From: Candidatus Hydrogenedentota bacterium
Lineage (GTDB): Bacteria; Hydrogenedentota; Hydrogenedentia; Hydrogenedentales; SLHB01
Assembly: GCA_019695095.1 (NCBI GenBank)
Contig: JAIBAQ010000057.1
Span: 1-32,944 of the forward strand
Direction of reading: 5' to 3'
DNA: 32,944 nt
In this document: in pieces, positions 2,609-25,986 of the stretch
Position numbering within the stretch: the stretch's first letter is position 1
Layout of the letters: every line of letters starts with the position of its first letter
Notes under the pieces: model-generated
Seen by the model: the letters and a program-made list of their open reading frames with translations, nothing else
Databases searched by the model: none
Told to the model about the DNA's origin: nothing
Position numbers and translations under genes: made by a program

Positions 2609-4630
2609 TCAGTGTTGATGTCCCGTCGCCTGCATGGTGTCATCCATTCCGGCCTGCGGAGTCTCCTGAGAAGCCTTCTGGTCCGAACTTGGCGTCTGAA
2701 TGCCGGACACGGCGGGATTGAGGCGGGCTTCGGCGTCAATCAGGAAAGAACCTCGTGAGACGATACGCTGCCCCAATGCGAGACCGTCGAGCACGGGGTA
2801 ATAAGCGCCGGCGCGTGGACCCAACGTGACGTGGCGCGCATCGTATAGGCCTGGAGACGATTCCACATAGACGACGGTATGTTCTCCGGTGTCGATGACG
2901 GCGCTCTCGGGCACGGCGAGAACGCGCTCGATGCGAAACCGTGTCATCTTCATGCCGCATCCGCACGTGGTGCATACGCCGGGTTTGTCACTGATTTCTT
3001 CGGGATGCATCGGACACATGTACCCTTCCACGACGGGTTCGTAAGAGCCCGCGTGTGGCAGGGCGGGGTTTTCTCCCACGCCAGTAGTCATGCCGGGAGC
3101 AGAGGCGGTCTGAACGCCGGCTCCCTTCTTCTGTTCGACCAAGCGCATGCCGCAGATGGAGCAATCGCCGGGTTTGTCGGAAACGACCTGGGGATCCATC
3201 GTGCACGTGAAATACTTGGCACCGTCGGCCAGCGTGGCCAAGTATTGCGCAGCTTGCTCCGCCGTAGTTGTGGGAAGAGTAATAGCGTGCGCCCCCTTCT
3301 GCTTCTCGACCAAGTGCATGCCGCAGATGGAGCAATCGCCGGGTTTGTCGGAAACGACCTGGGGATCCATCGTGCACGTGAAATACTTGGCGCCGTCGGC
3401 AAGCGTGGCCAAGTATTGCGCGGCTTGCTCCGCCGTAGTTGTTGGCAGAGAAACGGACTTCGCTTCCTTCTTTGGCACCTGAGCCTTTTCAGTGGCGTCA
3501 TCGGCAGAGCCGTACTTGCCGATCGGGGAACGCATGACCGCGTTCACGTACATACCGGGGCGAAGTTTCCCGTCGGTGTTGGCGATGGATACGCGCACTT
3601 TCAGCGAACGGCTGGAGGGATCCACTTCGGGGTAGAAGAAGTCGACGGTTCCGTAGAAGATCTCGCCCGGCCACGCAACACTCGAAACTTCGACGGGCAT
3701 CCTGTCGTGGATGCCTCCGATGTCGGATTCGATGACTTGGACTTGCACCCAGAGTGTGGAAAGATCCGCGATACCGAAGAGAGCGGTTCCTTCTTCCACG
3801 TTTTGGCCCAGGACGACATTCTTCTTCATGACGGTGCCGGTCACCGGTGAATACAAGGTAATAGCGCTGGCCTCGCCGCCTGTCTGCGCGATTGCGTCGA
3901 GTTGCTGGTCAGTGAATCCTGCCAGGCTCAATCGCTTGCGCGCGGCAGTCACCAACGCTTCTGCGCGTTCCTTCGCTCTGTCGTCGGCGTTGGGGTTGTT
4001 CTCAACGGACTTCTTGTTCTCCAATGCGTGTACGTACTCCGACGACCCCTGCAAGAACTGTGGACTGTAGATTCGGGCGAGGGGTTCCCCTTTACGAATA
4101 GGCATGCCCGTCGCGTTGACCATCAGCTCTTCGACGCGACCGGGAAACCGGGCGATGACATCCGCGACGCGCGTTTCCGCGACTTCCACCACGCCGTAGG
4201 AACGCACTTCGCGGGTCAGCATGCGGTAGAGCACGGGTTCAACTTGCACGCCCGCCTGCATGATTCGATCGGGCGAAACCTGTACGCGCGCAAGCACGCC
4301 CTCCGGCATTTCGACGGGGGCGCCCTTCTTTCGTTGCGTGAGGTCCATGCCGCAGATTGGGCATTTGCCCGGACGGTCGCGCACGACGAAGGGATGCATG
4401 CCGCAGTAGTATTCGAATTCGCTTTCGGCGGATTTCTCTTCGAGTGCAACGCCCTGCGACGTCCGCTCGCGCTGCCAGCGCTCGTAGTAGTTCTGAATGG
4501 TGTCCCAGTAACCGACAAGCAAGGCGGTTATCACCAGGATCAGGATGAACCGGAGGCGGATCTCGAGGAACTTGAGCACAAAGAAGGCTCGTCTCAAGAT
4601 GCCCGGTTTTTTCGTTGGCGCATCGCTCAT
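2609..4630 (-). CDS. cusB: CusB-type RND periplasmic adaptor with four heavy-metal-binding modules
   Basis: Membrane-fusion (adaptor) subunit of a heavy-metal RND pump, 673 residues, longer than E. coli CusB (about 400). An N-terminal anchor helix (about residues 24-41) is followed by a heavy-metal-binding domain (HMBD, YYCGMHP...CPICGMDL, residues 74-97), then the barrel-sandwich and beta-barrel core (YSPVTGTVMKKNVV, LRPGMYVNAVM). Between the core and the C-terminal membrane-proximal part sit three more HMBDs: two near-identical copies (TCTMDPQVVSDKPGDCSICG) around residues 394-498 and a diverged one (YMCPMHPEE...CTTCGCGM) near 537. HMBDs of this kind bind soft metals such as copper or silver and are thought to hand them to the pump. 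The C-terminus is rich in Met and His. The gene starts 22 bases after the permease stop, with GGGAGA upstream of the ATG. No outer-membrane channel gene (CusC) or CusF is nearby. Confidence 0.92.
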   Translation of the reverse strand: MSDAPTKKPGILRRAFFVLKFLEIRLRFILILVITALLVGYWDTIQNYYERWQRERTSQGVALEEKSAESEFEYYCGMHPFVVRDRPGKCPICGMDLTQRKKGAPVEMPEGVLARVQVSPDRIMQAGVQVEPVLYRMLTREVRSYGVVEVAETRVADVIARFPGRVEELMVNATGMPIRKGEPLARIYSPQFLQGSSEYVHALENKKSVENNPNADDRAKERAEALVTAARKRLSLAGFTDQQLDAIAQTGGEASAITLYSPVTGTVMKKNVVLGQNVEEGTALFGIADLSTLWVQVQVIESDIGGIHDRMPVEVSSVAWPGEIFYGTVDFFYPEVDPSSRSLKVRVSIANTDGKLRPGMYVNAVMRSPIGKYGSADDATEKAQVPKKEAKSVSLPTTTAEQAAQYLATLADGAKYFTCTMDPQVVSDKPGDCSICGMHLVEKQKGAHAITLPTTTAEQAAQYLATLADGAKYFTCTMDPQVVSDKPGDCSICGMRLVEQKKGAGVQTASAPGMTTGVGENPALPHAGSYEPVVEGYMCPMHPEEISDKPGVCTTCGCGMKMTRFRIERVLAVPESAVIDTGEHTVVYVESSPGLYDARHVTLGPRAGAYYPVLDGLALGQRIVSRGSFLIDAEARLNPAVSGIQTPSSDQKASQETPQAGMDDTMQATGHQH
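3136..3450 (-). repeat. Tandem 171-bp duplication of a metal-binding module inside the adaptor gene
   Basis: Two direct copies of about 144 bases, 3136-3279 and 3307-3450, are offset by exactly 171 bases (57 codons) and differ at only a handful of positions. Each encodes a linker (LPTTTAEQAAQYLATLADGA) followed by one HMBD. The offset is a multiple of three, so the frame is kept. The near-identity of the DNA points to a recent duplication or ongoing gene conversion. Confidence 0.93.
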
Positions 4631-4652
4631 TTAAGGTCTCCCAAAACGGCGT

Positions 4653-7600
4653 TCATGACGCGACTCCGTCCGTGCCCGTTTCCGGCGCTGCCGCGGGCAG
4701 TGGATTTTGCTGAAGGCGCATCCAACGACGTTTTTCGACGTGATAGAACAGGACCGGAAGAAAGATGTCGATGACTTCATCGGCAACAAGCAGGCCACCC
4801 AGCACTGGCGCTGCCATCGGGGCGATGACTTCCGCGCCAACGCCGTGCGCCCAGAGCATGGGCGCAAGGCCCACAATGGCCGTTGCTTCCGTGAGGAACT
4901 TCGGTCGAAGCCGGTGAACGGCTCCCGCGACGACGGTCTTCTTCAGTTCGTCGACGGAGGGGATAGACGCCAGCCCGCCGCGTTCGGCGATGGCGTCGCG
5001 CAGGTAAACGAGCATGATGATACCCGTCTCGGTGGCCATGCCAAAGCACGCGATATAACCCACCCATACCGCAACGCTGAAGTTGTATCCGAAGAGCGCC
5101 TGGAACAAGACGCCGCCCGCCAAGGCTCCGGGAACGGCCATCATCATCAGGATCGCGTGCATGAAGTCGTGGTAGGTGACGTACAGGATGACGAAGATGA
5201 GTATGAGCACGGCAGGAAACACGATGCGTAACGTTCTCTTGGCGCGAATCTGATGCTCGTACTGGCCGGTCCATTCCAGATAGGCGCCCTCGGGAAGCTT
5301 GACTTTCTCGGCCACGACGCGCTGGGCCTCTTCGACAAAGCCGACGATGTCCCGATCACGGACATTGAGTTGGACATACGAGCGGAGCAGTCCGTTCTCG
5401 CTCTTGATCATCACGGGTCCTTCGACCACGCTGATATCGGCTACGTCACTTAGACGAACAGCAGGTAGAGTGCCCATACCATTGGATGAAGGCTCGGCAG
5501 GCGCACCCATGCCGCCCTGCGTAACGAGGATGTCGCGAATGGCCTGTTCATCGGCGCGGTAGTCGCGCGCGTAGCGCAGTCGAACGGGGTAACGCTCACG
5601 TCCTTCCACGGTGGTGGTGATGGGTTTTCCGCCAAGAGCGACTTCGACAATATCCTGAATGTCGCCGACGTTAATCCCATATCGCGCTGCCTTGGTCCTG
5701 TCGATGTGAATCTCGATGTATCCCTTGCCGACCGTCTGATCGGCGACGACGTCAACTGCACCCTGAATGCCGCGCAGCACTTCCGCAACTTGGTTCGACG
5801 CCTGCTGTATGTCGTCCTGGTTCTGTCCGAATACCTTTACCGCGAGCTGTGTGCGAACGCCAGTTGCCAACATGTCGACGCGATTGATGATGGGCTGCGT
5901 CCAGATGTTTGCCCACCCCAACTGATGCACGGATTTGTCGAGTTCCTGGACAAGATCTTGTTTTGATTTTGGCCACAGGAAGATGCGCTCGCCAATCTGC
6001 TCCGCGAGCTTTGCGGCGTCCACGTTGTGCGGGTGCGTGTCTCCGCGCCACGCCGCCTGCATGCCAGCCTGCAATTCCGACTCGGCGAGGAGCGCGTTTG
6101 CGAATGCCAGCATCGCGTGCGGGAACAGGAGTTGATTGGTTTCTTTGGCCCACGCGTGTCGTTCATCCGATCGATATTGCTCCAAGGCTTCGAATGTAAG
6201 TACATAGAAGTCTTTGCGGGGGAGTCCGAGCGTGTCCGTGACGATCGCCCACGCAGTAGTCATCGGAGATTCAATGGGGGCGAGCAGGGCGGCGGTTTCC
6301 TTGTTTTGCGCTCCTGCTGCTTTGAGGGCGTCAAACGTTGCGTCAACCAGTTCTTCCACGTCGAGGAGTTGCGGATTGTGCGCGAAGGATGCGGCATGTG
6401 CGGCTAGAAGCTCTTCCATCAGGCGCTCGCGTGTCGAGGTTTCCAACGGTGAAGTCCAGGCGTGATGCCCTTCGACTTGTTTCAGCGCGCGCTCAATTAC
6501 GAAGCGCGCCGACGCATTCGCCAGAACGCCCTGGTGCTCCAGTGAGCGGTCCATTACGTCGAGTCGCATGGCCGCGTCGAAGCGGTCCAGCGCGCCGAAA
6601 GCTATGGCATCGACGAGCGACTTTCGTGCAGCGTCTTTGACCGTGTCCACGGTTCCGGACGATTCGAGTTGTGTGAAGAGGCGGTCCGCCTCCGCTTGCG
6701 CGTCCTCGATTCGAATCTTGCGTTTTAGCCAATGATCACGCGGGTGCAGCGTGATGACAGACTCGATCATATCGAGGGGCGAGGGATCGGTCGGGGTGTC
6801 GGCGCGCCCTGCTTTGCCGACGACCATTTCGACTTCGGGGAACGCGCGAATCATGGCATCGCGGGCCTTCAGGTCGTCGGCGACTTCCGTAACCGAGGCG
6901 CGCGGCACGGTGACCGGCATGTCAAGGATACTGCCTTCATCCAAGGGGGGCATGAATTCACGGCCGAGGTGGCGTGCCGTGTAGAAACCAAGCGCGAGCA
7001 GTATCACGAAAAGCCAAATGACCGTCTTGGGACGTTCCATGAGGAAACTCAGAACAGGCCGATACATCTCGATGACGCTGCGGATCAGCCAGTTGTTTTC
7101 TTCGCGTGACAACCTGCCTCGAACGAAGATGGGGATTATCGCGGGAACCAGCGTGATGGAAATGATTGCCGTGCCCAGAAGGGCGAATGTCTTCGTGAAG
7201 GCGAGGGGATGAAACAGCTTGCCTTCCTGACCAGTGAGAGCGAAGACAGGCAGAAACGAAATCACCATGATCACCACGGAGAAGAAGATAGGCCGGCCCA
7301 CTTGACGCATCGCGCCGACCACAATTTCCGTGGTGTCTCCACGAATAGGCCTATCGCCGAAGTGTTGGGTAAGCCGATGCGTGGCGTTCTCCAGCATAAC
7401 GATAGCCTGATCTACGAGAATTCCAATGGAGATGGCGATTCCCGAGAGCGACATGATGTTTGACGAGATTTTAAACCAGTCCATCAGGATGAACGCGATG
7501 AGGATGGACAGGGGCAGCGTAATCACGACCACGAAGACGCTGCGTATATGAACGAGAATGAGGAGAATGGCAATTGTCGCGATGATGATTTCGTGTTCGA

Positions 7601-8612
7601 GGATGGTCTGGACGGTATCGATAGAGCTCTCAATGAGCCGGGTCCGGTCGTAGAATGAAACAATGCGCACCCCTTCCGGCAGGCCTTTCTGGAGTTCGCG
7701 TATCTTGTTTTTGATGGCTTGTGTGACGCGCAGGGGGTTCTCGCCATATCGCATCATGACGACGCCGCCGACGGCCTCGCGTCCATCCTTTTCGAGGACG
7801 CTGCGCCGGAATTCGGGGCCCATCTGCACGGTGGCGACGTCGCCAACCAATACGGGAACGCCGTTGCGTTCGGTGATCACGATGTCGCGTATGTCTTCGA
7901 GAGTTTGTATCCAGCCCACGCCGCGAATGAGATATTCGGCGTTTCCTTTCTGAACGACGCGTCCGCCCACGGAACTGTTGCTTCGCGCGATGGCCGAGTA
8001 GATGGCTCCAATGGTTACGTTGTACGCGCGCAGGCGTTCGGGCGTTACATCCACCTGGTATTCGCGCGGCATTCCGCCGACGCTGCTCACTTGGGCAACG
8101 CCGGGAACCGAATTCAGTTGGTATCGGACATACCAGTCCTGAAGGGCGCGCAGTTCGCCGAGATCCCGGTTGTCCCCTTCGATCGTGTACCAGAAGATCT
8201 GGCCGAGCGCGGTGGCATCCGGCGCGAGATACGGAACCACGTTTTCGGGCAGAAACGTGTTCGCCAACGCGAGGCGTTCCAGGACCCGTGTGCGCGCGAA
8301 GTAAAAGTCCACGGAATCGTCAAAGATGATGTTGATCATCGAGAAGTTGAATTCGGAGGAAGAACGAACGGCCTTGACGCCGGCGAGCCCTTGGAGGTTT
8401 ACCGAAAGGGGATAGGTGATCTGATCTTCGATTTCCTTTGGACTGCGGCCCATCCAGTCGGTAAACACGATGACCTGATTCTCGGACAGATCAGGAATCG
8501 CGTCGATGGGGGTACTCTGCAGCACCCAGAGTCCGTAGCCGGTGATGCCCAGATAGACAATGATGACGACCGCTCTGTTTCTGCAGCAGAATTCGATCAG
8601 CCTTTCAATCAT
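4653..8612 (-). CDS. cusA: CusA/CzcA-type heavy-metal RND efflux permease with large insert
   Basis: Inner-membrane, proton-driven permease of a tripartite metal pump. At 1319 residues it is well beyond the roughly 1050 usual for CusA/CzcA. The N-terminus (RNRAVVIIVYLGI, IPDLSENQVIVFTDW) and helix 4 (GILVDQAIVMLENATHR, with D401 as likely proton-relay residue) are classic heavy-metal RND. The three methionines of the E. coli CusA metal site (M573, M623, M672) seem to correspond to M565 (ILDMPVTVP), M615 (SPLDMIES) and M914 (NRVDMLATG), favouring Cu/Ag over Co/Zn/Cd. The extra length lies between LHPRDHW (about 628) and SKQDLVQELD (about 883), where other family members have a short link; it is largely helical in character and unlike any domain I recognise. 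The adaptor gene follows 22 bases later and a small lipoprotein gene precedes it by 74 bases, suggesting one operon. Confidence 0.93.
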   Translation of the reverse strand: MIERLIEFCCRNRAVVIIVYLGITGYGLWVLQSTPIDAIPDLSENQVIVFTDWMGRSPKEIEDQITYPLSVNLQGLAGVKAVRSSSEFNFSMINIIFDDSVDFYFARTRVLERLALANTFLPENVVPYLAPDATALGQIFWYTIEGDNRDLGELRALQDWYVRYQLNSVPGVAQVSSVGGMPREYQVDVTPERLRAYNVTIGAIYSAIARSNSSVGGRVVQKGNAEYLIRGVGWIQTLEDIRDIVITERNGVPVLVGDVATVQMGPEFRRSVLEKDGREAVGGVVMMRYGENPLRVTQAIKNKIRELQKGLPEGVRIVSFYDRTRLIESSIDTVQTILEHEIIIATIAILLILVHIRSVFVVVITLPLSILIAFILMDWFKISSNIMSLSGIAISIGILVDQAIVMLENATHRLTQHFGDRPIRGDTTEIVVGAMRQVGRPIFFSVVIMVISFLPVFALTGQEGKLFHPLAFTKTFALLGTAIISITLVPAIIPIFVRGRLSREENNWLIRSVIEMYRPVLSFLMERPKTVIWLFVILLALGFYTARHLGREFMPPLDEGSILDMPVTVPRASVTEVADDLKARDAMIRAFPEVEMVVGKAGRADTPTDPSPLDMIESVITLHPRDHWLKRKIRIEDAQAEADRLFTQLESSGTVDTVKDAARKSLVDAIAFGALDRFDAAMRLDVMDRSLEHQGVLANASARFVIERALKQVEGHHAWTSPLETSTRERLMEELLAAHAASFAHNPQLLDVEELVDATFDALKAAGAQNKETAALLAPIESPMTTAWAIVTDTLGLPRKDFYVLTFEALEQYRSDERHAWAKETNQLLFPHAMLAFANALLAESELQAGMQAAWRGDTHPHNVDAAKLAEQIGERIFLWPKSKQDLVQELDKSVHQLGWANIWTQPIINRVDMLATGVRTQLAVKVFGQNQDDIQQASNQVAEVLRGIQGAVDVVADQTVGKGYIEIHIDRTKAARYGINVGDIQDIVEVALGGKPITTTVEGRERYPVRLRYARDYRADEQAIRDILVTQGGMGAPAEPSSNGMGTLPAVRLSDVADISVVEGPVMIKSENGLLRSYVQLNVRDRDIVGFVEEAQRVVAEKVKLPEGAYLEWTGQYEHQIRAKRTLRIVFPAVLILIFVILYVTYHDFMHAILMMMAVPGALAGGVLFQALFGYNFSVAVWVGYIACFGMATETGIIMLVYLRDAIAERGGLASIPSVDELKKTVVAGAVHRLRPKFLTEATAIVGLAPMLWAHGVGAEVIAPMAAPVLGGLLVADEVIDIFLPVLFYHVEKRRWMRLQQNPLPAAAPETGTDGVAS

Positions 8613-12643: not shown

Positions 12644-13591
12644 TCAGTTGTGAACAAGTACCTTCATAACGCCGGGGGCGGCGGCGCGCTCCAGGGCTTT
12701 CAACGCCTCGGTGATGGGGTAGCGCTCGGTGATAAGCGAACGTACCTCAACCGTGCCCAGCATAAGGGCTTCGAGCGCGGGCCGGAAGGGGCCGCACCGG
12801 GATCCAATGATGTTGATTTCGTTGATGACCGGGACGCTGAAGTTCATCGGTGTGCCGTTTGCCACGGTGGTTTTGAGCACGATAGTCCCTTCGGGGCGCA
12901 CCAACTCGATGGCGCGCGCGATACCTTCGGGGGATCCGGTGGCTTCCACGACAATGTCCGCGCCGGATTCCACGGGGTCCGTGGCGGCTGCGACGGGTAT
13001 GTGGAGCTTGCGCAGGAAGTCGAGCTTCCACGAATGCTTGCCGATACACGTCAGCTTCTTGGTGCGAAGCGCGATTACCTGCGCGATCAACTGCGCCAGT
13101 TTTCCATCGCCGAGCACGATGACGCGATCATTCTGCGTGATGTCGATTTGTTCGTCGATGCGAAATGCCGCGGCGGCGGGTTCGGTGAATACGGCCACTT
13201 CGTCCGGCATGCCTTCGGCGACCATATAGAGATTCTCTTCCGGCAGCACGAAGTACTCCGCGAGTGTGCCGTTTCGGTTTTGAATCCCGAGGACCGTGCG
13301 ATTGGGACAGTGATGGGACAACTCGCTTTGGCAGTAGCGGCATCGGCGGCACACGCAGTTGATTTCGCCCACAACGCGCTTGCCCATGAGATGAGGGTTG
13401 GCCGATTGTTCGACAATCCCGACGAATTCGTGTCCGATGACACCGCGGAATCCCATGTAGCCTTTGAGGATTTCGAGGTCGGTATTACAGATTCCAGTGA
13501 CCAGCGTACGTATGAGCGCTTCGCCAGGTCCGGGCGCCGGTACGGGGAGATTGACAAGGCGCGGTTCCCCGTCGAACACAACCGCTAACAT
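12644..13591 (-). CDS. Zinc-dependent medium-chain alcohol/polyol dehydrogenase
   Basis: A 315-residue medium-chain dehydrogenase/reductase of the threonine/sorbitol dehydrogenase type. Probable catalytic-zinc ligands are C35 (GICNTDLE) and H54-E55 (GHEFVG). The structural-zinc cysteines are C81, C84, C87 and C95 in the CVCRRCRYCQSELSHHC stretch. A Rossmann segment (VIVLGDGKLAQLIAQVIA) binds NAD(P). I put the start at the ATG at 13591, which has GGGGAGGAC upstream; the frame stays open to 13798 but the extra 69 residues look non-coding and have no family match. It probably oxidises a sugar or polyol feeding the adjacent isomerase. It is divergent from the sigma-factor fusion, 289 bases away. 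Confidence 0.9.
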   Translation of the reverse strand: MLAVVFDGEPRLVNLPVPAPGPGEALIRTLVTGICNTDLEILKGYMGFRGVIGHEFVGIVEQSANPHLMGKRVVGEINCVCRRCRYCQSELSHHCPNRTVLGIQNRNGTLAEYFVLPEENLYMVAEGMPDEVAVFTEPAAAAFRIDEQIDITQNDRVIVLGDGKLAQLIAQVIALRTKKLTCIGKHSWKLDFLRKLHIPVAAATDPVESGADIVVEATGSPEGIARAIELVRPEGTIVLKTTVANGTPMNFSVPVINEINIIGSRCGPFRPALEALMLGTVEVRSLITERYPITEALKALERAAAPGVMKVLVHN

Positions 13592-13880
13592 CTGCTGTCC
13601 TCCCCGGTAACGATGGCCACGCCCACACGCCAAAGGTGTATTGAACACTTCAACGAAGGGAGAATCAAGAGGATAATCCGGGCGTCTGGCAACCAGGTGA
13701 AATCCCGGGCTGTATACTGGATAGAGTTGCCGGCCACGTGGAGTAGAGGAATGCGGATTCTCTGTCAAGGCGAAGGCTTGGATCTGTCGGAGCAACATCT
13801 GCTGGATTGGATTGTCGCGATTACTGGGCGGGCGGCATCGTTATTATGTGGCCACGAACTGGACAAGTAATCAGGGCTTT
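13592..13880. other. Divergent intergenic region between the dehydrogenase and the sigma fusion
   Basis: 289 bases that should carry promoters in both directions. On the plus strand a TATACT hexamer at 13713-13718 resembles a -10 element for the sigma fusion, but I see no matching -35 at the right distance. The dehydrogenase ribosome binding site is at its left edge. No terminator or repeat was found. Confidence 0.35.
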
Positions 13881-16800
13881 ATGAGCGATTCCGAGATCAT
13901 CAGGCGAGTTCTTTCCGGTGAAGATGCTTTGTTCAGCCGGATTGTAAACCGGTATAGCGGGTACGTTTGGGCCATTTGTTCCAGCTATATCCGCAATCCG
14001 GCGGACAGGGAGGATGTCGCTCAGGAGACGTTTGTGGAGTGTTACCGAAAGCTGAACACGCTTCGGCAACCGGCGGCCTTCGGCCGGTGGCTCAGCCAGT
14101 TAGCGCGTAGGCGCTGTTTGATGTGGTTGCGCGCGGCGGGTCGCCGTGAAGCGAGTCTCGCCCGATACGAAGAGCAGATAGAAACCACCGCTGATATCGA
14201 GACTCATTCCGGAAGCGGTGAGTTGCGTCAAGGGATTCGCGACGCCATTGAAGGTTTGCCCGACGACTATCGTGAAGCGCTTCTTTTACGGTATGCCGAA
14301 GGCTATTCGACAGAAGAGGCGGCATCGTTTCTCGGAATCTCTTACGCGGCGATGCGCAAGCGGATCGAGCGGGCGCACCACATGCTCAAGGACCGGATAT
14401 GGAACGAGATCGAACCGGCACTTGCCGAAGAGAAACACGAGGATAGATATGTTCGGGGAATCCTCTCAGCCATTCCGTTTGGCAGTGCGACGTGGCTCGG
14501 CACAACAGCCCCGGCCGTAACGACAACGGCGGCCGCGGCAACCGTCAGTTCAAAGCTGGCACTGATAGGGGGGATTGCAGTCATGTCCAAGAAGGCAATG
14601 TTGATCGGTGGCGCGATCGTAATCTTGCTGGGTTTTGGGTATGTCGCCATACAGAAGGCAGGAGTCTCGAACACTGAGTCGCAGGGCGCTGCTGTTCCTC
14701 AGAAGTCTGAAAAGGAACTCGCGTCAACGATGACCGAAACGGCCGCGGATGTTGGCGCTCAGCCGGCAATTGCTGATGCAGCGACACCGCCTGATCAATC
14801 GAAGAAGTCCACGGCCATACCGCGAAAGCCCGCGCCGCCGTCGTCTGTTTCCGGCCATGTGAAGGACAGGGTAGGGAAGCCTATTGCAGGCGCGGATGTC
14901 CACGTGGAGGTCGGCAGCGATCGTTACACCAATGATGTAATCAAGACGTTTCATGCCAAGTCGAAAGAAGACGGCTCGTATGAGGTGGCGGGCATCGACG
15001 TGTTTGGGCGAGCGAACATCTTCGGGACGGCCACGGGTTTCGTGATGGAACGTCAGCACGAGAAGATCGTTCCAGGCGCGAAACTCACTGGCATCGACTT
15101 TTCGCTCTTGGAGGCCGCGTACTATGTCGCGGGACGGGTCGTGAACGAGAGCCAGATGCCCGTTCCCGGCGCTTCGGTGGACTCTCTCTATTTTGGGTAT
15201 GACGAGTCCGGCTTGGCGCACACGGCAAAGACGGGACAGACAACGGGCAACATCAGCGGGTCGAAGTTTGTGTTTGCCGTCACGGATGACAGTGGACACT
15301 TTGCCCTTGCGATACCCAGCGAGGGTTTGTGCGATCTGCGGGTGACGAAAGAGGGTTATGGCCCCGGCTTTTTCCCAAGCATCTCAACCGGCACCACTAA
15401 TGCGGAACTTGTGCTTCGCGCGGGCGGGGCGATATCCGGGGTTGTCTCAGACGAATCGGGTAAAGCCGTTGCCGGTGTGAATGTTCGTGTTCTTGGAGAG
15501 GCACTTCCCGGAGGGCTGGAGACTGGAGAGGTGCGAATTCAGAAGCTTCCCGTTCCCACCGTCACGGTGACTACGGACGACGCAGGGAAGTACCTCGCCG
15601 ATAAACTCGGCGAAGACTACGTATACACTGTGTCCGTTCCTGCTGAGGAGAAGTCGTTGGGCTCGGACGATTCCCAGGACCCCATACGCGTCCACATTGC
15701 GGAGGCCATGCGCGAACTCGATGAAGGTTCTTTCGGGGGAGCGAGTGCGCGCGCGATGAAGACGGGTATACACGTCAAGGCAGGAGTGACAACCACCGAC
15801 GTGAACCTGACGATAGGCGGCCCGAGCGATGCCGAAATTTGTGGCAAGGTGACCGATAGGACCAGCGGTAAGCCGGCCTGTCCGGTCGTAGTCACCGCGG
15901 CACTTGTGGGGGGCGCCAAGGAGCAGGCCAAGACGAAGTATTGGTTCCAAGCGGAAGCCGGGGCATCCGCGGTGACGCATCTGGACGGAACGTATGAGTT
16001 GTCGATTAACAATGTCGAGCAAGGCCAGCGATTCAGGATCAGCTATGCGTTCATGACAGAAGGAGGCAGTGCGTGGGAGCAGCCCGATGAAGAGGTGGCG
16101 GTTTTCGACCTGAATCCCGGGGACAAGAAACAACTCGACTTCAGTGTGGATGCGCCCATGACTGTTCCTGTCCGGTATGTGGATACGAAGGGCGGGCCGC
16201 TAGAAGGTATTTCCGCTGCAATGCGCCGGGCAGGGGGGAAAGGTGGTTGTGGCGGGACGCTTATGTCGGATGCCGAGGGGCGCGTTACTTTTCACGGTAT
16301 ACCGGGGAACGTGAGTCTTCAAGCCGTGGCATGGAAGGACACGGGCAATGACCTCATGACGCTTGGCGTCAGCGAGCCGTTCACGGGTCAGCCCGGGGAG
16401 ACGGTTCCCGAAGTAGTCGTAGTGTGCCGAATGCCCGGCAGCATCCAAGTCATGCTGACCTTTCCGGATGGGCGCGCGGTGGCGAATGCAAACGTGACGT
16501 GCGAGGCATCTCTTGCTGACGGCAGCGCGCCGCCTATTCAAGGCATGGTTACGACGGATGCCTCTGGCGCGATCCAAATCTTCGACATGGTTCCTGAAGG
16601 CACGTATCGAGGTGCAAGCGTGTCGTTGATCGATCCCAGTACGTCACAACCCTACTCCGCGTCGTCGGGAGGCTTCGAAGTGGCCACGGGCGCCATGACC
16701 GACTTGGGCACTCTCACCGTTCAACCAGAAAAAGACTTGTCACGTGTGGTGGAGTCGGCGGATTGGGGCAGGAAAGGAAACGAGGCAATCGCTGCTGTGT

Positions 16801-17147
16801 ACTCCAAGGAGGGTCTGGCGGCGCTAAGTAACTCGGGCATGATATTGAAGACCGGTTTCGCGTTGTATGACGTGGGCAAATACCAAGATGCCTTGGATGT
16901 GTTCGCGCAGATGTCCGCGGCCGCCGATAATGACACGATGTCCGCAGTCTCGTACATTTGGCAGGGGCAGATGCTAGACCTGCTTGGGAAACGGCAAGAC
17001 GCCATCGCGGCGTATACGACGGCCGCCAATATGAACGTGACGGGCGAAATGCGCCACGATCAGTTTGGACTCGCGTATTCACCGAGCGAATATGCCAAGG
17101 AACGATTGCAGACGCCGTTTACGCGCATTGAGAACCAGATGAAGTAG
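13881..17147 (+). CDS. Membrane-anchored ECF sigma factor fused to carboxypeptidase-regulatory and TPR-like domains
   Basis: A 1088-residue single-chain protein. Residues 18-85 are sigma70 region 2 (FSRIVNRYSGYVW, IRNPADREDVAQETFVECYRKL) and 118-172 are region 4 (LPDDYREALLLRYAEGYSTEEAASFLGIS), the DNA-binding parts of an ECF sigma factor. An Ala/Thr-rich hydrophobic stretch (201-234) and a membrane helix (LIGGAIVILLGFGYVAI, 241-257) follow. The remaining 830 or so residues are predicted to lie outside the cytoplasm: about six carboxypeptidase-regulatory-like beta-sandwich modules beginning near residues 321, 414, 516, 652, 760 and 854 (SGHVKDRVGKPIAGADV-type starts), then a TPR-like end (LYDVGKYQDALDVFAQM, LLGKRQDAIAAYTTAANM). 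The likely start is the ATG at 13881; a TTG at 13812 is less convincing. No anti-sigma gene is adjacent. Plausibly a sensor controls the tethered sigma domain; this is inference. Confidence 0.88.
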   Translation: MSDSEIIRRVLSGEDALFSRIVNRYSGYVWAICSSYIRNPADREDVAQETFVECYRKLNTLRQPAAFGRWLSQLARRRCLMWLRAAGRREASLARYEEQIETTADIETHSGSGELRQGIRDAIEGLPDDYREALLLRYAEGYSTEEAASFLGISYAAMRKRIERAHHMLKDRIWNEIEPALAEEKHEDRYVRGILSAIPFGSATWLGTTAPAVTTTAAAATVSSKLALIGGIAVMSKKAMLIGGAIVILLGFGYVAIQKAGVSNTESQGAAVPQKSEKELASTMTETAADVGAQPAIADAATPPDQSKKSTAIPRKPAPPSSVSGHVKDRVGKPIAGADVHVEVGSDRYTNDVIKTFHAKSKEDGSYEVAGIDVFGRANIFGTATGFVMERQHEKIVPGAKLTGIDFSLLEAAYYVAGRVVNESQMPVPGASVDSLYFGYDESGLAHTAKTGQTTGNISGSKFVFAVTDDSGHFALAIPSEGLCDLRVTKEGYGPGFFPSISTGTTNAELVLRAGGAISGVVSDESGKAVAGVNVRVLGEALPGGLETGEVRIQKLPVPTVTVTTDDAGKYLADKLGEDYVYTVSVPAEEKSLGSDDSQDPIRVHIAEAMRELDEGSFGGASARAMKTGIHVKAGVTTTDVNLTIGGPSDAEICGKVTDRTSGKPACPVVVTAALVGGAKEQAKTKYWFQAEAGASAVTHLDGTYELSINNVEQGQRFRISYAFMTEGGSAWEQPDEEVAVFDLNPGDKKQLDFSVDAPMTVPVRYVDTKGGPLEGISAAMRRAGGKGGCGGTLMSDAEGRVTFHGIPGNVSLQAVAWKDTGNDLMTLGVSEPFTGQPGETVPEVVVVCRMPGSIQVMLTFPDGRAVANANVTCEASLADGSAPPIQGMVTTDASGAIQIFDMVPEGTYRGASVSLIDPSTSQPYSASSGGFEVATGAMTDLGTLTVQPEKDLSRVVESADWGRKGNEAIAAVYSKEGLAALSNSGMILKTGFALYDVGKYQDALDVFAQMSAAADNDTMSAVSYIWQGQMLDLLGKRQDAIAAYTTAANMNVTGEMRHDQFGLAYSPSEYAKERLQTPFTRIENQMK

Positions 17148-22867: not shown

Positions 22868-22936
22868 TACTCACTTCAGTTAATCGCGAGAGATCCGCAC
22901 GCGACTGCACAACCTTGGGGAGGTTTGGAGGGGAAC

Positions 22937-24220
22937 ATGGAGAATCTGACGCGACGTTCGTTTTTGAAGACTACGGGAGCCGGTTTGGCTGCCGCATCGG
23001 CGTTGTCGGGTGTGACGGCGAAGGCCGCGGCAAGTGAGCGTGTGCGGCATGCGGTCATCGGGCTTGGGGGGCAGGGGAAGCGCCACACCAAAGGCTTCGC
23101 GGCCATGGACATCTGCGAAGTGGTCGCCGTGTGCGATGTGGACCCCCAGCGCCGCGATGCGGCTGTGGCGGTCACGCCTTACCCGGACAAGATTGCCAAG
23201 CACGAAGACTATCGGCGGATTCTTGAAGACAAGACTATCGATAGTGTGAGTATTGCGACGTGCGATCATTGGCACACGCCGATCGCGATTGCCGCATTGA
23301 TAGCCGGCAAGCACGTGTACGTGGAGAAGCCGTGCGGTCATAACGTACACGAGTGTCAGGCGCTTGTTGAGGCGGCTAAGAAGTCGGGGAAGTGTGTGCA
23401 GCACGGTACGCAGGCGCGAAGCGGCAAAGGCGTGATTGCGGCGGTGCAGGCGTTGCGTGAAGGCGCGATTGGCAAGGTGCGGATGGCCAAGGCGATCAAT
23501 CAACAATTGCGGGCTCCTATCGGGCGCGCGCCTGAGGAAGCGCCGCCGCCGGGTGTGAACTACGATATGTGGCTTGGTCCCGCGCCGGTGCACCCGTTCA
23601 CGAAGAACCGGTGGCATTACAACTGGCATTGGTTCTGGGATTATGGATGCGGCGATATTGCGAACGACGGTGTGCATGAAACGGACGTCGCGCGTTGGGG
23701 ACTCGGCGTGGGCATGCCGAAGCGAGTCAGCGCTTCCGGTGGTCAGCTCTTCTATGACGACGATCATGAGACTCCGGATACGCAGGTTGTGATGTACGAG
23801 TACGACGAGTGCTATCTCATGTACGAGATGCGCTTGTGGTGCGACTATGAGATCGGCGGGATGGAAAACGGGACCGTGTTCTTTGGAGACAAGGGTACGA
23901 TTTCGTTCGATGGCGGCAAGGGCTGTTTTCTCACGCTTAAGGGTGAGGAACCGAAGCAGATTGGAGGTGGCCACGAGTGGGAGACTCATGTTCGCAACTT
24001 CATCGAGTGCGTGAAGGCGAACGACAAGTCGAAACTCAATGCGCCAATCGAAGAAGGGGCAATTTCCGCGACCATGTGCCACATGGGCAACATTTCGACG
24101 CGAGTGGGTCGGTCGCTGGCAGTTGACACCAATTCCTGGAGCTTCGTAGGTGACGATGATGCCAATAAGCTGCTCAAGCGGGAATATCGAAAAGGCTATG
24201 AGTTGCCCGTATACGCGTAG
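22937..24220 (+). CDS. Gfo/Idh/MocA family oxidoreductase with TAT signal
   Basis: A 427-residue NAD(P)-dependent oxidoreductase. The ATG at 22937 has GGAGGGG just upstream. A twin-arginine export signal opens the protein (TRRSFLKTTGAGLAAASAL), so it is folded with cofactor in the cytoplasm and then exported. The Rossmann part has VIGLGGQGKRHTKGF and VVAVCDVDPQRRDAA, then DHWHTPIAIAALIAGKHVYV and the EKPCGHNVHE motif with the likely catalytic Lys. The C-terminal sheet domain includes WHYNWHWFWDYGCGDIANDGVHETDVARW, a form typical of exported members in this lineage (quoted in pieces: WHWFWDYGCGDIAND, VHETDVARW). Such enzymes oxidise or epimerise sugars; the substrate is unknown. It is monocistronic, ended by the terminator at 24237. 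Confidence 0.92.
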   Translation: MENLTRRSFLKTTGAGLAAASALSGVTAKAAASERVRHAVIGLGGQGKRHTKGFAAMDICEVVAVCDVDPQRRDAAVAVTPYPDKIAKHEDYRRILEDKTIDSVSIATCDHWHTPIAIAALIAGKHVYVEKPCGHNVHECQALVEAAKKSGKCVQHGTQARSGKGVIAAVQALREGAIGKVRMAKAINQQLRAPIGRAPEEAPPPGVNYDMWLGPAPVHPFTKNRWHYNWHWFWDYGCGDIANDGVHETDVARWGLGVGMPKRVSASGGQLFYDDDHETPDTQVVMYEYDECYLMYEMRLWCDYEIGGMENGTVFFGDKGTISFDGGKGCFLTLKGEEPKQIGGGHEWETHVRNFIECVKANDKSKLNAPIEEGAISATMCHMGNISTRVGRSLAVDTNSWSFVGDDDANKLLKREYRKGYELPVYA

Positions 24221-24236
24221 TCCGGTCAAATGAAAG

Positions 24237-24274
24237 AAGCGCGCAGACTCATTTAAGGTCTGCGCGCTTTTTTG
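24237..24274. terminator. Strong rho-independent terminator, usable in both directions
   Basis: A perfect 11-bp stem (AGCGCGCAGAC at 24238-24248 with its complement at 24258-24268) with a 9-base loop, followed by seven Ts (24268-24274) on the plus strand. It ends the Gfo/Idh/MocA gene 17 bases after its stop. On the minus strand it is followed by a weaker TTCTTTCATTT, and lies 21 bases beyond the stop of the convergent Ig-like protein gene, so it probably serves both. Confidence 0.93.
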
Positions 24275-24294
24275 TCGTTTACGCTGTTGTTGCG

Positions 24295-25896
24295 TCAGGA
24301 ACGATTGCGGCGGCGTCGCGACTGGAGTTCGGCCAGGACCAAGCCAAGCGCGGCCAATCCCAACGGGGCCAAGCCCGTGAGACCCGCCTGAAGCGGAACG
24401 TTGCCTGCTTTTGCGCTCGCGAAGCACGAGGCTCCGGGGGACACGCCATGCTGATAGTATCCGCCGGTGTTGTAGTTTCCGGCGTCGTCTTGACATACGT
24501 TATCCGGAATGGTGATGGTCACCGGTCCGGTTACGGTAACAGGCAGCAAATTGAACGTGTAGACAGCGTCTTCGCCGCTGAACGTATTTGAAGAGTGGAA
24601 CTGCGCACCCGTGACGATAATGTCGCTCTGAGTAAATCCAGTCACCGGTTCGCTGAAGGTCACGAGGACTTGGATAACCGTGCTGATGCTGCTGGGATTG
24701 GGGGTGACGCTCGATATCGCTACCGATGGCGACGCCGTATCGACTGTGCGTTTGAATTGGGTAGCAGCTTTATTGGGATTTCCTCCCGCGTCTTTTGCGG
24801 AACCCTCCGGGATATCGACCGTGATCTGACCGGAGATGTTGGGAACGAGATCGAAGGTATAGGTGGTGCCCGAGCCGTCGAAGTCCTGAGCGGTGCATCC
24901 GCCGATATCGAGGTCCGTGACATCGAATCCGGTTACGCTTTCGCTGAACGTGACCGTGACGGGAATCGGGTTCTGGCTAGTGGTTTCGGTCGTCGATGAG
25001 GTGATGGTAACGGTTGGAGCAATGAGGTCGAAATTGACCACTTGCCCTTTTTCCGTGGCGCTCATGCACGTAAACAGGGGTTCAGGAAGCGTCAAAAGCT
25101 CACTGCACTTCGCTTCGGCGTCGCTGATACTCGGCTTTGCGGTAAGCAGGGTCATAAAGATGTATGTTTGTCCGGCAGGCAGGCTGAACGAGTATTCCCA
25201 CGAGACATTTGCCGTGTTATTGACAAAAGAGACCGTTGAGGGAGCGATGCGGCGGCCCGGACCATAGAGGACATGGCCAAGGCGGGGGCTGTTCGATAAG
25301 CCGCCCCCGTCGTAATCCTTGAACGTAACAACCCAGCGGTCGGAGGTCGTCGCGGTATCGAGGGGCGCGGTGGATGTGCTGCCGATTAGCGTATTGGTTC
25401 CCGCGCCCATTGTTCCGACGAGCGTGACGGTGACGGTTTCGGAACTTCCCGAGTTGTTTTGGACGACATTCAGCCACCGGCAAAACGCATCGTCTTCCGG
25501 GACAAACACTTTGCGTTGTACGGTGAGGTTGCCGATGGTCTGCGGCGCAAATACCACTTGCCGGTCAACGAAAGAGGTTTCGCCTTCGCAGGTGGTGGTT
25601 ACCGTGCCGTTTTGGTTGTAGGCGACGCCGTTTACGAGAAGTCCGGCGTAGCCTTCTACGCCGTTGGTGAGCAGTGCGGTGGTTGTGCCGCCCAGACTCG
25701 TGGTGACTCCCGTCACGGAAGTCGTGTATTCGGCCTCTTTCGCCGCGCCCGACGCCGACACCGAGGTAGTGAAGGTTACATCGGTGTTGATGTCGAATTG
25801 GACGCCAGAAGCGTCAACGAGTGAAACGACGGCTCCAGCCGTCGGAACCAGAGCGGTCACGATGACCGCTGCCAGGAGATAGGTCTTCCAAGTCAT
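24295..25896 (-). CDS. Secreted Ig-like domain protein with C-terminal anchor/sorting tail
   Basis: A 533-residue cell-surface protein. The start is the ATG at 25896 (a TTG at 25908 is in frame). A signal peptide (TYLLAAVIVTALVPTAGA) leads into a Thr/Ser-rich beta domain of about 250 residues of no recognised family. Two tandem bacterial Ig-like modules follow, each with the VTVTFSESVTGFDVTDL / VLVTFSEPVTGFTQSDI pattern of the Big_12/BapA-type fold and ending before VDTASPSVAIS or the tail. The C-terminus has ASCFASAKAGN, a hydrophobic helix (GLTGLAPLGLAALGLVLAEL) and SRRRRNRS: a Cys-helix-Arg layout like CTERM protein-sorting signals. It therefore probably ends up anchored or processed at the surface. 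Its own promoter is visible at 25987-26015. Confidence 0.82.
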   Translation of the reverse strand: MTWKTYLLAAVIVTALVPTAGAVVSLVDASGVQFDINTDVTFTTSVSASGAAKEAEYTTSVTGVTTSLGGTTTALLTNGVEGYAGLLVNGVAYNQNGTVTTTCEGETSFVDRQVVFAPQTIGNLTVQRKVFVPEDDAFCRWLNVVQNNSGSSETVTVTLVGTMGAGTNTLIGSTSTAPLDTATTSDRWVVTFKDYDGGGLSNSPRLGHVLYGPGRRIAPSTVSFVNNTANVSWEYSFSLPAGQTYIFMTLLTAKPSISDAEAKCSELLTLPEPLFTCMSATEKGQVVNFDLIAPTVTITSSTTETTSQNPIPVTVTFSESVTGFDVTDLDIGGCTAQDFDGSGTTYTFDLVPNISGQITVDIPEGSAKDAGGNPNKAATQFKRTVDTASPSVAISSVTPNPSSISTVIQVLVTFSEPVTGFTQSDIIVTGAQFHSSNTFSGEDAVYTFNLLPVTVTGPVTITIPDNVCQDDAGNYNTGGYYQHGVSPGASCFASAKAGNVPLQAGLTGLAPLGLAALGLVLAELQSRRRRNRS

Positions 25897-25986
25897 GACT
25901 GTGAACAACCCCTTCTTGCCCGTTTTTTTCCTCCGGCCGCACGCAAAGTGTGGCCAGAACGACTACCCATAACGGTGCCTTTGGGG

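Follow-up and report, generated by a model that had tools for sequence, protein, structure and literature searches.

A one-piece membrane-tethered ECF sigma factor of Candidatus Hydrogenedentota whose gene probably also specifies a sigma-less sensor through an internal start

ECF systems normally use two genes, one for the sigma factor and one for the membrane protein that regulates it. The principle of joining the two in one piece is not new, because sigma/membrane fusions are already known (ECF48, ECF52, ECF53 and IutY; PMC8999054). In ECF48, ECF52 and ECF53 of Actinobacteria (e.g. SCO4117), the sigma core is fused C-terminally to a membrane helix and an outer domain, and activation is thought to occur by proteolysis; IutY of Pseudomonas putida (ECF243) carries sigma factor and membrane sensor in one chain, with release by Prc and RseP; and ECF42 proteins have a TPR-rich extension of ~200 residues, for which a membrane helix is not described (all PMC8999054). 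Nested in-frame starts that give rise to N-terminally shorter proteins are also established, i.e. for MrcB, ClpB, InfB and ArcB, with the inner start of MrcB lying close before the membrane anchor and the longer form having extra residues ahead of this anchor; in such published internal starts the inner Shine–Dalgarno (SD) sequence is stronger than the outer one (PMC11005335). For the combination of a one-piece sigma factor with an internal start, no precedent was found in the open-access literature.

The gene described here lies in a contig of a Candidatus Hydrogenedentota genome, of which 32,944 nucleotides, referred to as the window, were analysed. It consists of one uninterrupted frame (table 1); a TTG at 13812 is a possible upstream start, and the orthologues start where the ATG does. 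With a probability of roughly 0.6, we read this gene as encoding a one-piece membrane-tethered ECF sigma factor and, via an internal start, also a sigma-less membrane sensor, a reading that draws on comparative sequence analysis and structure prediction.

Table 1. Coordinates, in the window, of the sigma gene, its domains and its predicted internal start.
Feature	Position	Strand	Size or evidence
Entire frame, from ECF sigma core through membrane helix and beta-sandwich modules to helical end	13881..17147	+	1088 aa plus stop
Sigma-70 region 2 (aa 22-89)	13944..14147	+	Pfam PF04542, E 1.6e-12; same place found by whole-genome search
Sigma-70 region 4 (aa 118-165)	14232..14375	+	Pfam PF08281 (Sigma70_r4_2), E 5e-14
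Linker from sigma region 4 to internal start (aa 178-234)	14412..14582	+	low complexity; disordered in model
Internal Shine–Dalgarno sequence AGGGGGG	14567..14573	+	9 nt ahead of internal ATG
Internal in-frame ATG (M235)	14583..14585	+	with SD in 8/8 of orthologue group
Predicted second product: sigma-less membrane sensor, N-terminus MSKK plus hydrophobic helix	14583..17147	+	854 aa; inferred from internal start
Membrane helix (aa 239-257)	14595..14651	+	hydropathy
Carboxypeptidase-regulatory-like beta sandwiches, about six (aa 321-946; predicted to lie outside)	14841..16718	+	Pfam PF13620, model, Foldseek
Helical TPR-like end (aa 953-1087)	16737..17141	+	model; weak TPR_2 match

By Pfam, sigma regions 2 and 4 are present and the remaining sigma regions absent, as in ECF (group IV sigma-70) factors. 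CarboxypepD_reg matches the protein with 85 bits over four stretches, and a weak TPR_2 match lies at aa 1024-1050 (E 0.0014, under the cut-off). Hydropathy reveals a single clear hydrophobic helix, with KK just ahead of it. An AlphaFold2 model built from an eight-sequence alignment, which is of moderate confidence (mean pLDDT 67, pTM 0.36), shows helices at residues 3-196, disorder at 178-316, i.e. in the linker and membrane helix, beta sandwiches at 321-946 and helices again at 953-1087. In Foldseek searches, sigmaE, SigW and AlgU are matches of the sigma part, whereas strings of pilin-type domains match the beta part. Profiles and model thus bear out the layout given in the original prediction, with a sigma core, a helix, about six modules and a TPR-like end in one chain, and the proposed one-piece membrane sigma factor is supported by its domains, their fusion and seven orthologues from other Candidatus Hydrogenedentota genomes. 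Five of these are full-length, with 47-51% identity and an identical domain order (genomes G007, G039, G033, G060 and G062); the two shorter ones, from G015 and G004, are 39-41% identical and end without the last domain. The TPR-like end also shares 46-47% identity with the C-terminus of secreted, alpha/beta-hydrolase-like proteins encoded in other genomes of the same order (L024 and L028) and, by this similarity, appears to be a mobile domain common to sigma sensor and enzyme.

The linker contains the motif IPFG-x-A-x-W at aa 198-205, in which P199, F200, G201, A203 and W205 are invariant among the orthologues. This motif, or IMG-x-I-A-A-x-P-x-x-W, is found between sigma core and helix in many fused relatives (e.g. 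L146, L186 and L310). Present in the long form only, it is a candidate self-inhibiting or membrane-contact segment. An anti-sigma domain was not detected in the protein or its linker by Pfam at E up to 1, and the model shows no fold in this stretch.

How does this protein compare with the described systems? It shares the C-terminal fusion to a membrane helix with ECF48, ECF52 and ECF53; these, however, carry a fused zinc-finger anti-sigma domain, to which the window protein has no match, and it differs further in its CarboxypepD_reg-like outer chain, its internal start and its phylum. Like IutY, it is one chain without a separate anti-sigma gene, but IutY is the fused anti-sigma factor of an iron-uptake surface-signalling system, and neither an IutY-type anti-sigma domain in the window protein nor an outer-membrane receptor family match in the flanking genes was found. 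A C-terminal extension with TPR-like helices recalls ECF42, yet here a helix and beta modules follow the sigma core and the TPR match is weak and at the far end. In contrast to MrcB, ClpB, InfB and ArcB, what the predicted short form would lack is an entire transcription factor, and the same arrangement is found again and again in a large family of paralogues. With a canonical ECF sigma/anti-sigma pair, finally, it would share a cytoplasmic sigma factor under a single-helix membrane sensor and a similar two-product output, but from one frame rather than two genes, and without an anti-sigma domain.

The genes flanking the sigma gene do not include an anti-sigma gene, as the original prediction had stated. 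The left neighbour is a divergent zinc-type dehydrogenase gene (12644-13798, minus strand), and the right, convergent one encodes an unnamed protein that has a hydrophobic segment at its N-terminus. The ~80 bp between sigma and dehydrogenase genes (13798-13881) are a possible shared control region, an arrangement that is not conserved at the orthologous loci; across six of these loci no conserved neighbours were found. Elsewhere in the window, genes on the minus strand at 2609-8612 for an AcrB-family efflux pump and an HlyD-type adaptor with three heavy-metal-binding domain stretches are likely to form a metal efflux system, and at 22880-25908, also on the minus strand, two frames overlap by ~200 bases, one with Big_12 Ig-like domains and the other without a family match.

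The fused design is widespread in the phylum. The genome containing the window has 39 matches to sigma region 2, 10 of which lie in fused frames of 722-1168 aa, and relatives, many with long frames, occur in all phylum genomes examined (68/68). Among 47 sampled fused proteins, regions 2 and 4 are present in all and CarboxypepD_reg in 42. By contrast, the frames of the closest sigma relatives from other phyla (~80 loci) stop within 50 residues past the sigma core in 76/80 cases, and the same modules are nearly absent from them. Thus, the domain order, which recurs in the seven orthologues, is usual within Candidatus Hydrogenedentota rather than singular, and the host belongs to this phylum and not to the planctomycetes that had served as its reference. 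Fused and two-gene designs coexist in one genome: in that of the window, directly after short sigma genes (L003-L007), either overlapping or at a short distance, come small genes whose products, judged by eye, resemble classic anti-sigma factors, some with a membrane helix. The genome G015 (e.g. L300, L302, L305 and L310-L312), a 3 Mb draft that is 66% complete, has 48 sigma region-2 matches; the internal start is seen there in most fused members (10 of 13 counted), and several of its fused genes are frame-broken.

Directly before the membrane helix lies what appears to be an internal start, which the original prediction had missed. In the window, the anti-SD energy is -9.8 kcal/mol at this site versus -3.0 at the sigma start. 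Start codon and SD are retained by every member of the orthologue group, in a linker that between W205 and G325 has no further invariant column. When linkers of fused proteins are viewed side by side, Gly-Gly-x-x-Met-(Ser/Thr)-Lys-Lys is seen just ahead of the helix, and among the 105 fused proteins whose helix is clear, Met is most frequent 3-4 residues ahead of the helix boundary (8 and 17 cases). The mean SD energy at this pre-helix Met is -7.8 kcal/mol, compared with -3.2 at more than 1100 other ATGs in the same frames (p 4e-15). In a second set of 37 proteins, which was fetched after the pattern had been defined, using an alignment of Met-bearing members, and may therefore favour the Met but not the upstream nucleotides, 19 have the Met, with SD energies of -6.9 versus -3.1 (p 2.7e-5). 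An unselected comparison gives -7.8 kcal/mol for the inner start and -6.3 for sigma starts; the finding that the inner SD is the stronger one in 46/46 selected members is given no weight, because the threshold used for selection biases it.

Start codon and SD together are found in 47/143 fused proteins (38 ATG, 7 GTG and 2 TTG), mostly with spacers of 7-10 nt. Several members with an SD but no Met have GTG at the start position, and those without a start codon mostly also have no SD. Of the first Gly codons ahead of the Met, 32/48 are GGA, against a background of 20% (p 3e-12) and 15/60 in Met-less members (p 1.4e-5), and the SD is also spelled in other codon phases (LEV, LEG, WRT). A peptide-level cause of the Gly-Gly-Met pattern was considered and is disfavoured by this GGA bias, by the other codon phases and by the GTG replacements. 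Around the site, mRNA folding is weak (-7.3 kcal/mol, versus -11.0 at other internal ATGs and -12.9 in start-less members). Met plus SD occurs in 39/143 fused sigma proteins, but at internal membrane helices of other proteins in only 5/107. When sequences are clustered at 50% identity, the internal start is present in 16/32 clusters; a synonymous-codon energy test, taken alone, is moderate (Fisher p 1.5e-4). All these comparisons involve related, i.e. not independent, sequences from draft genomes, thresholds set after a first look at the data and an assumed 16S anti-SD of the usual type. With conserved start codon, SD and open mRNA all within the frame, the locus has the features of a gene with an internal in-frame start, and the pre-helix pattern points to a signal that is maintained at the nucleotide level. 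The gene probably makes the sensor alone as a second product, because this conserved second start signal sits just before the membrane anchor.

For such a fused frame, an error of assembly or sequencing that joins two genes is an obvious concern, all the more as the genome is a draft of 405 contigs and a few relatives in other draft genomes show frame breaks. The original prediction had itself pointed to the region 14460-14600 as a place for a frameshift or false join. This is ruled out by the seven orthologues, since their frames run unbroken through the same place, and with more than 100 relatives showing long open fused frames, the chance of such an artefact is practically negligible. Neither was a genuinely split homologue found that would indicate that sigma factor and modules are always separate genes: the breaks in the candidates (L300, L305, L307, L308 and L311) miss the internal start and resemble the frame or stop breaks of drafts. 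A contig scan with the single window protein as query gave no match.

More weight has to be given to the view that only the full-length protein matters, i.e. that it is a one-piece membrane ECF sigma factor following the logic of IutY or ECF52, activated by regulated intramembrane proteolysis, and that its internal ATG and SD are a decaying relic from the time when a sigma gene became fused to a downstream membrane-protein gene. One-piece fusions freed by proteolysis are known (PMC8999054), MSKK plus a helix does look like an ordinary membrane-protein N-terminus, and two thirds of the fused relatives do not have the internal start, which therefore is not needed for basic function; on a rough tree the trait changes ~29 times (41 in shuffles), so gains and losses seem frequent. 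A relic, however, would hardly be kept by all orthologues at 39-51% identity in an otherwise variable linker; replacement by GTG, the bias towards GGA and the open mRNA, seen in half of the sequence clusters, indicate upkeep, and no unfused sigma/sensor pair was found. We therefore regard this explanation as rather unlikely. Still less probable is that the SD-like stretch serves as a translation pause that aids delivery of the next helix to the membrane, with the Met being incidental. The stretch does directly precede the membrane helix in every case, but its initiation-like spacing to ATG or GTG, its usual absence where the start codon is missing, the open mRNA around the start codon and its rarity at internal helices of other proteins all speak against a pause.

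The favoured reading, i.e. a tethered sigma factor accompanied by a sigma-less sensor from the same frame, suggests the following mechanism. The sigma core would face the cytoplasm, with the single helix crossing the membrane and the string of beta sandwiches plus the helical end detecting a signal outside. Initiation at the internal start, which lies just ahead of the helix and has a ribosome-binding site of its own, would yield the sigma-less sensor. As the inner SD of the window gene is much stronger than the outer one, an excess of the short form is suggested; most likely, it would join the sigma-bearing form in a shared sensing complex, and its excess would set the amount of latent sigma factor per sensor. 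The signal would then free the sigma core, probably via cleavage at or near the membrane, for which the M50 site-2-protease homologues encoded in the genome are permissive, and the sigma core would act after such release or rearrangement. Tentatively, and at somewhat less than even odds, these elements may amount to a single-frame signalling system, in which nested starts let an excess of the sigma-less form regulate the sigma-bearing form and thus do the work of a separate anti-sigma gene within a large Hydrogenedentota sigma family.

Overall, a one-piece sigma factor without a recognisable anti-sigma domain has been multiplied across an entire phylum, and a hidden second start in about one third of the sampled family would restore the sensor as a separate part. 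Such a nested start is overlooked by gene callers because these keep one start per frame. The family would clearly exemplify a nested gene that is conserved among paralogues, and it offers a test case for how sigma activity may be restrained and set free when there is no anti-sigma factor.
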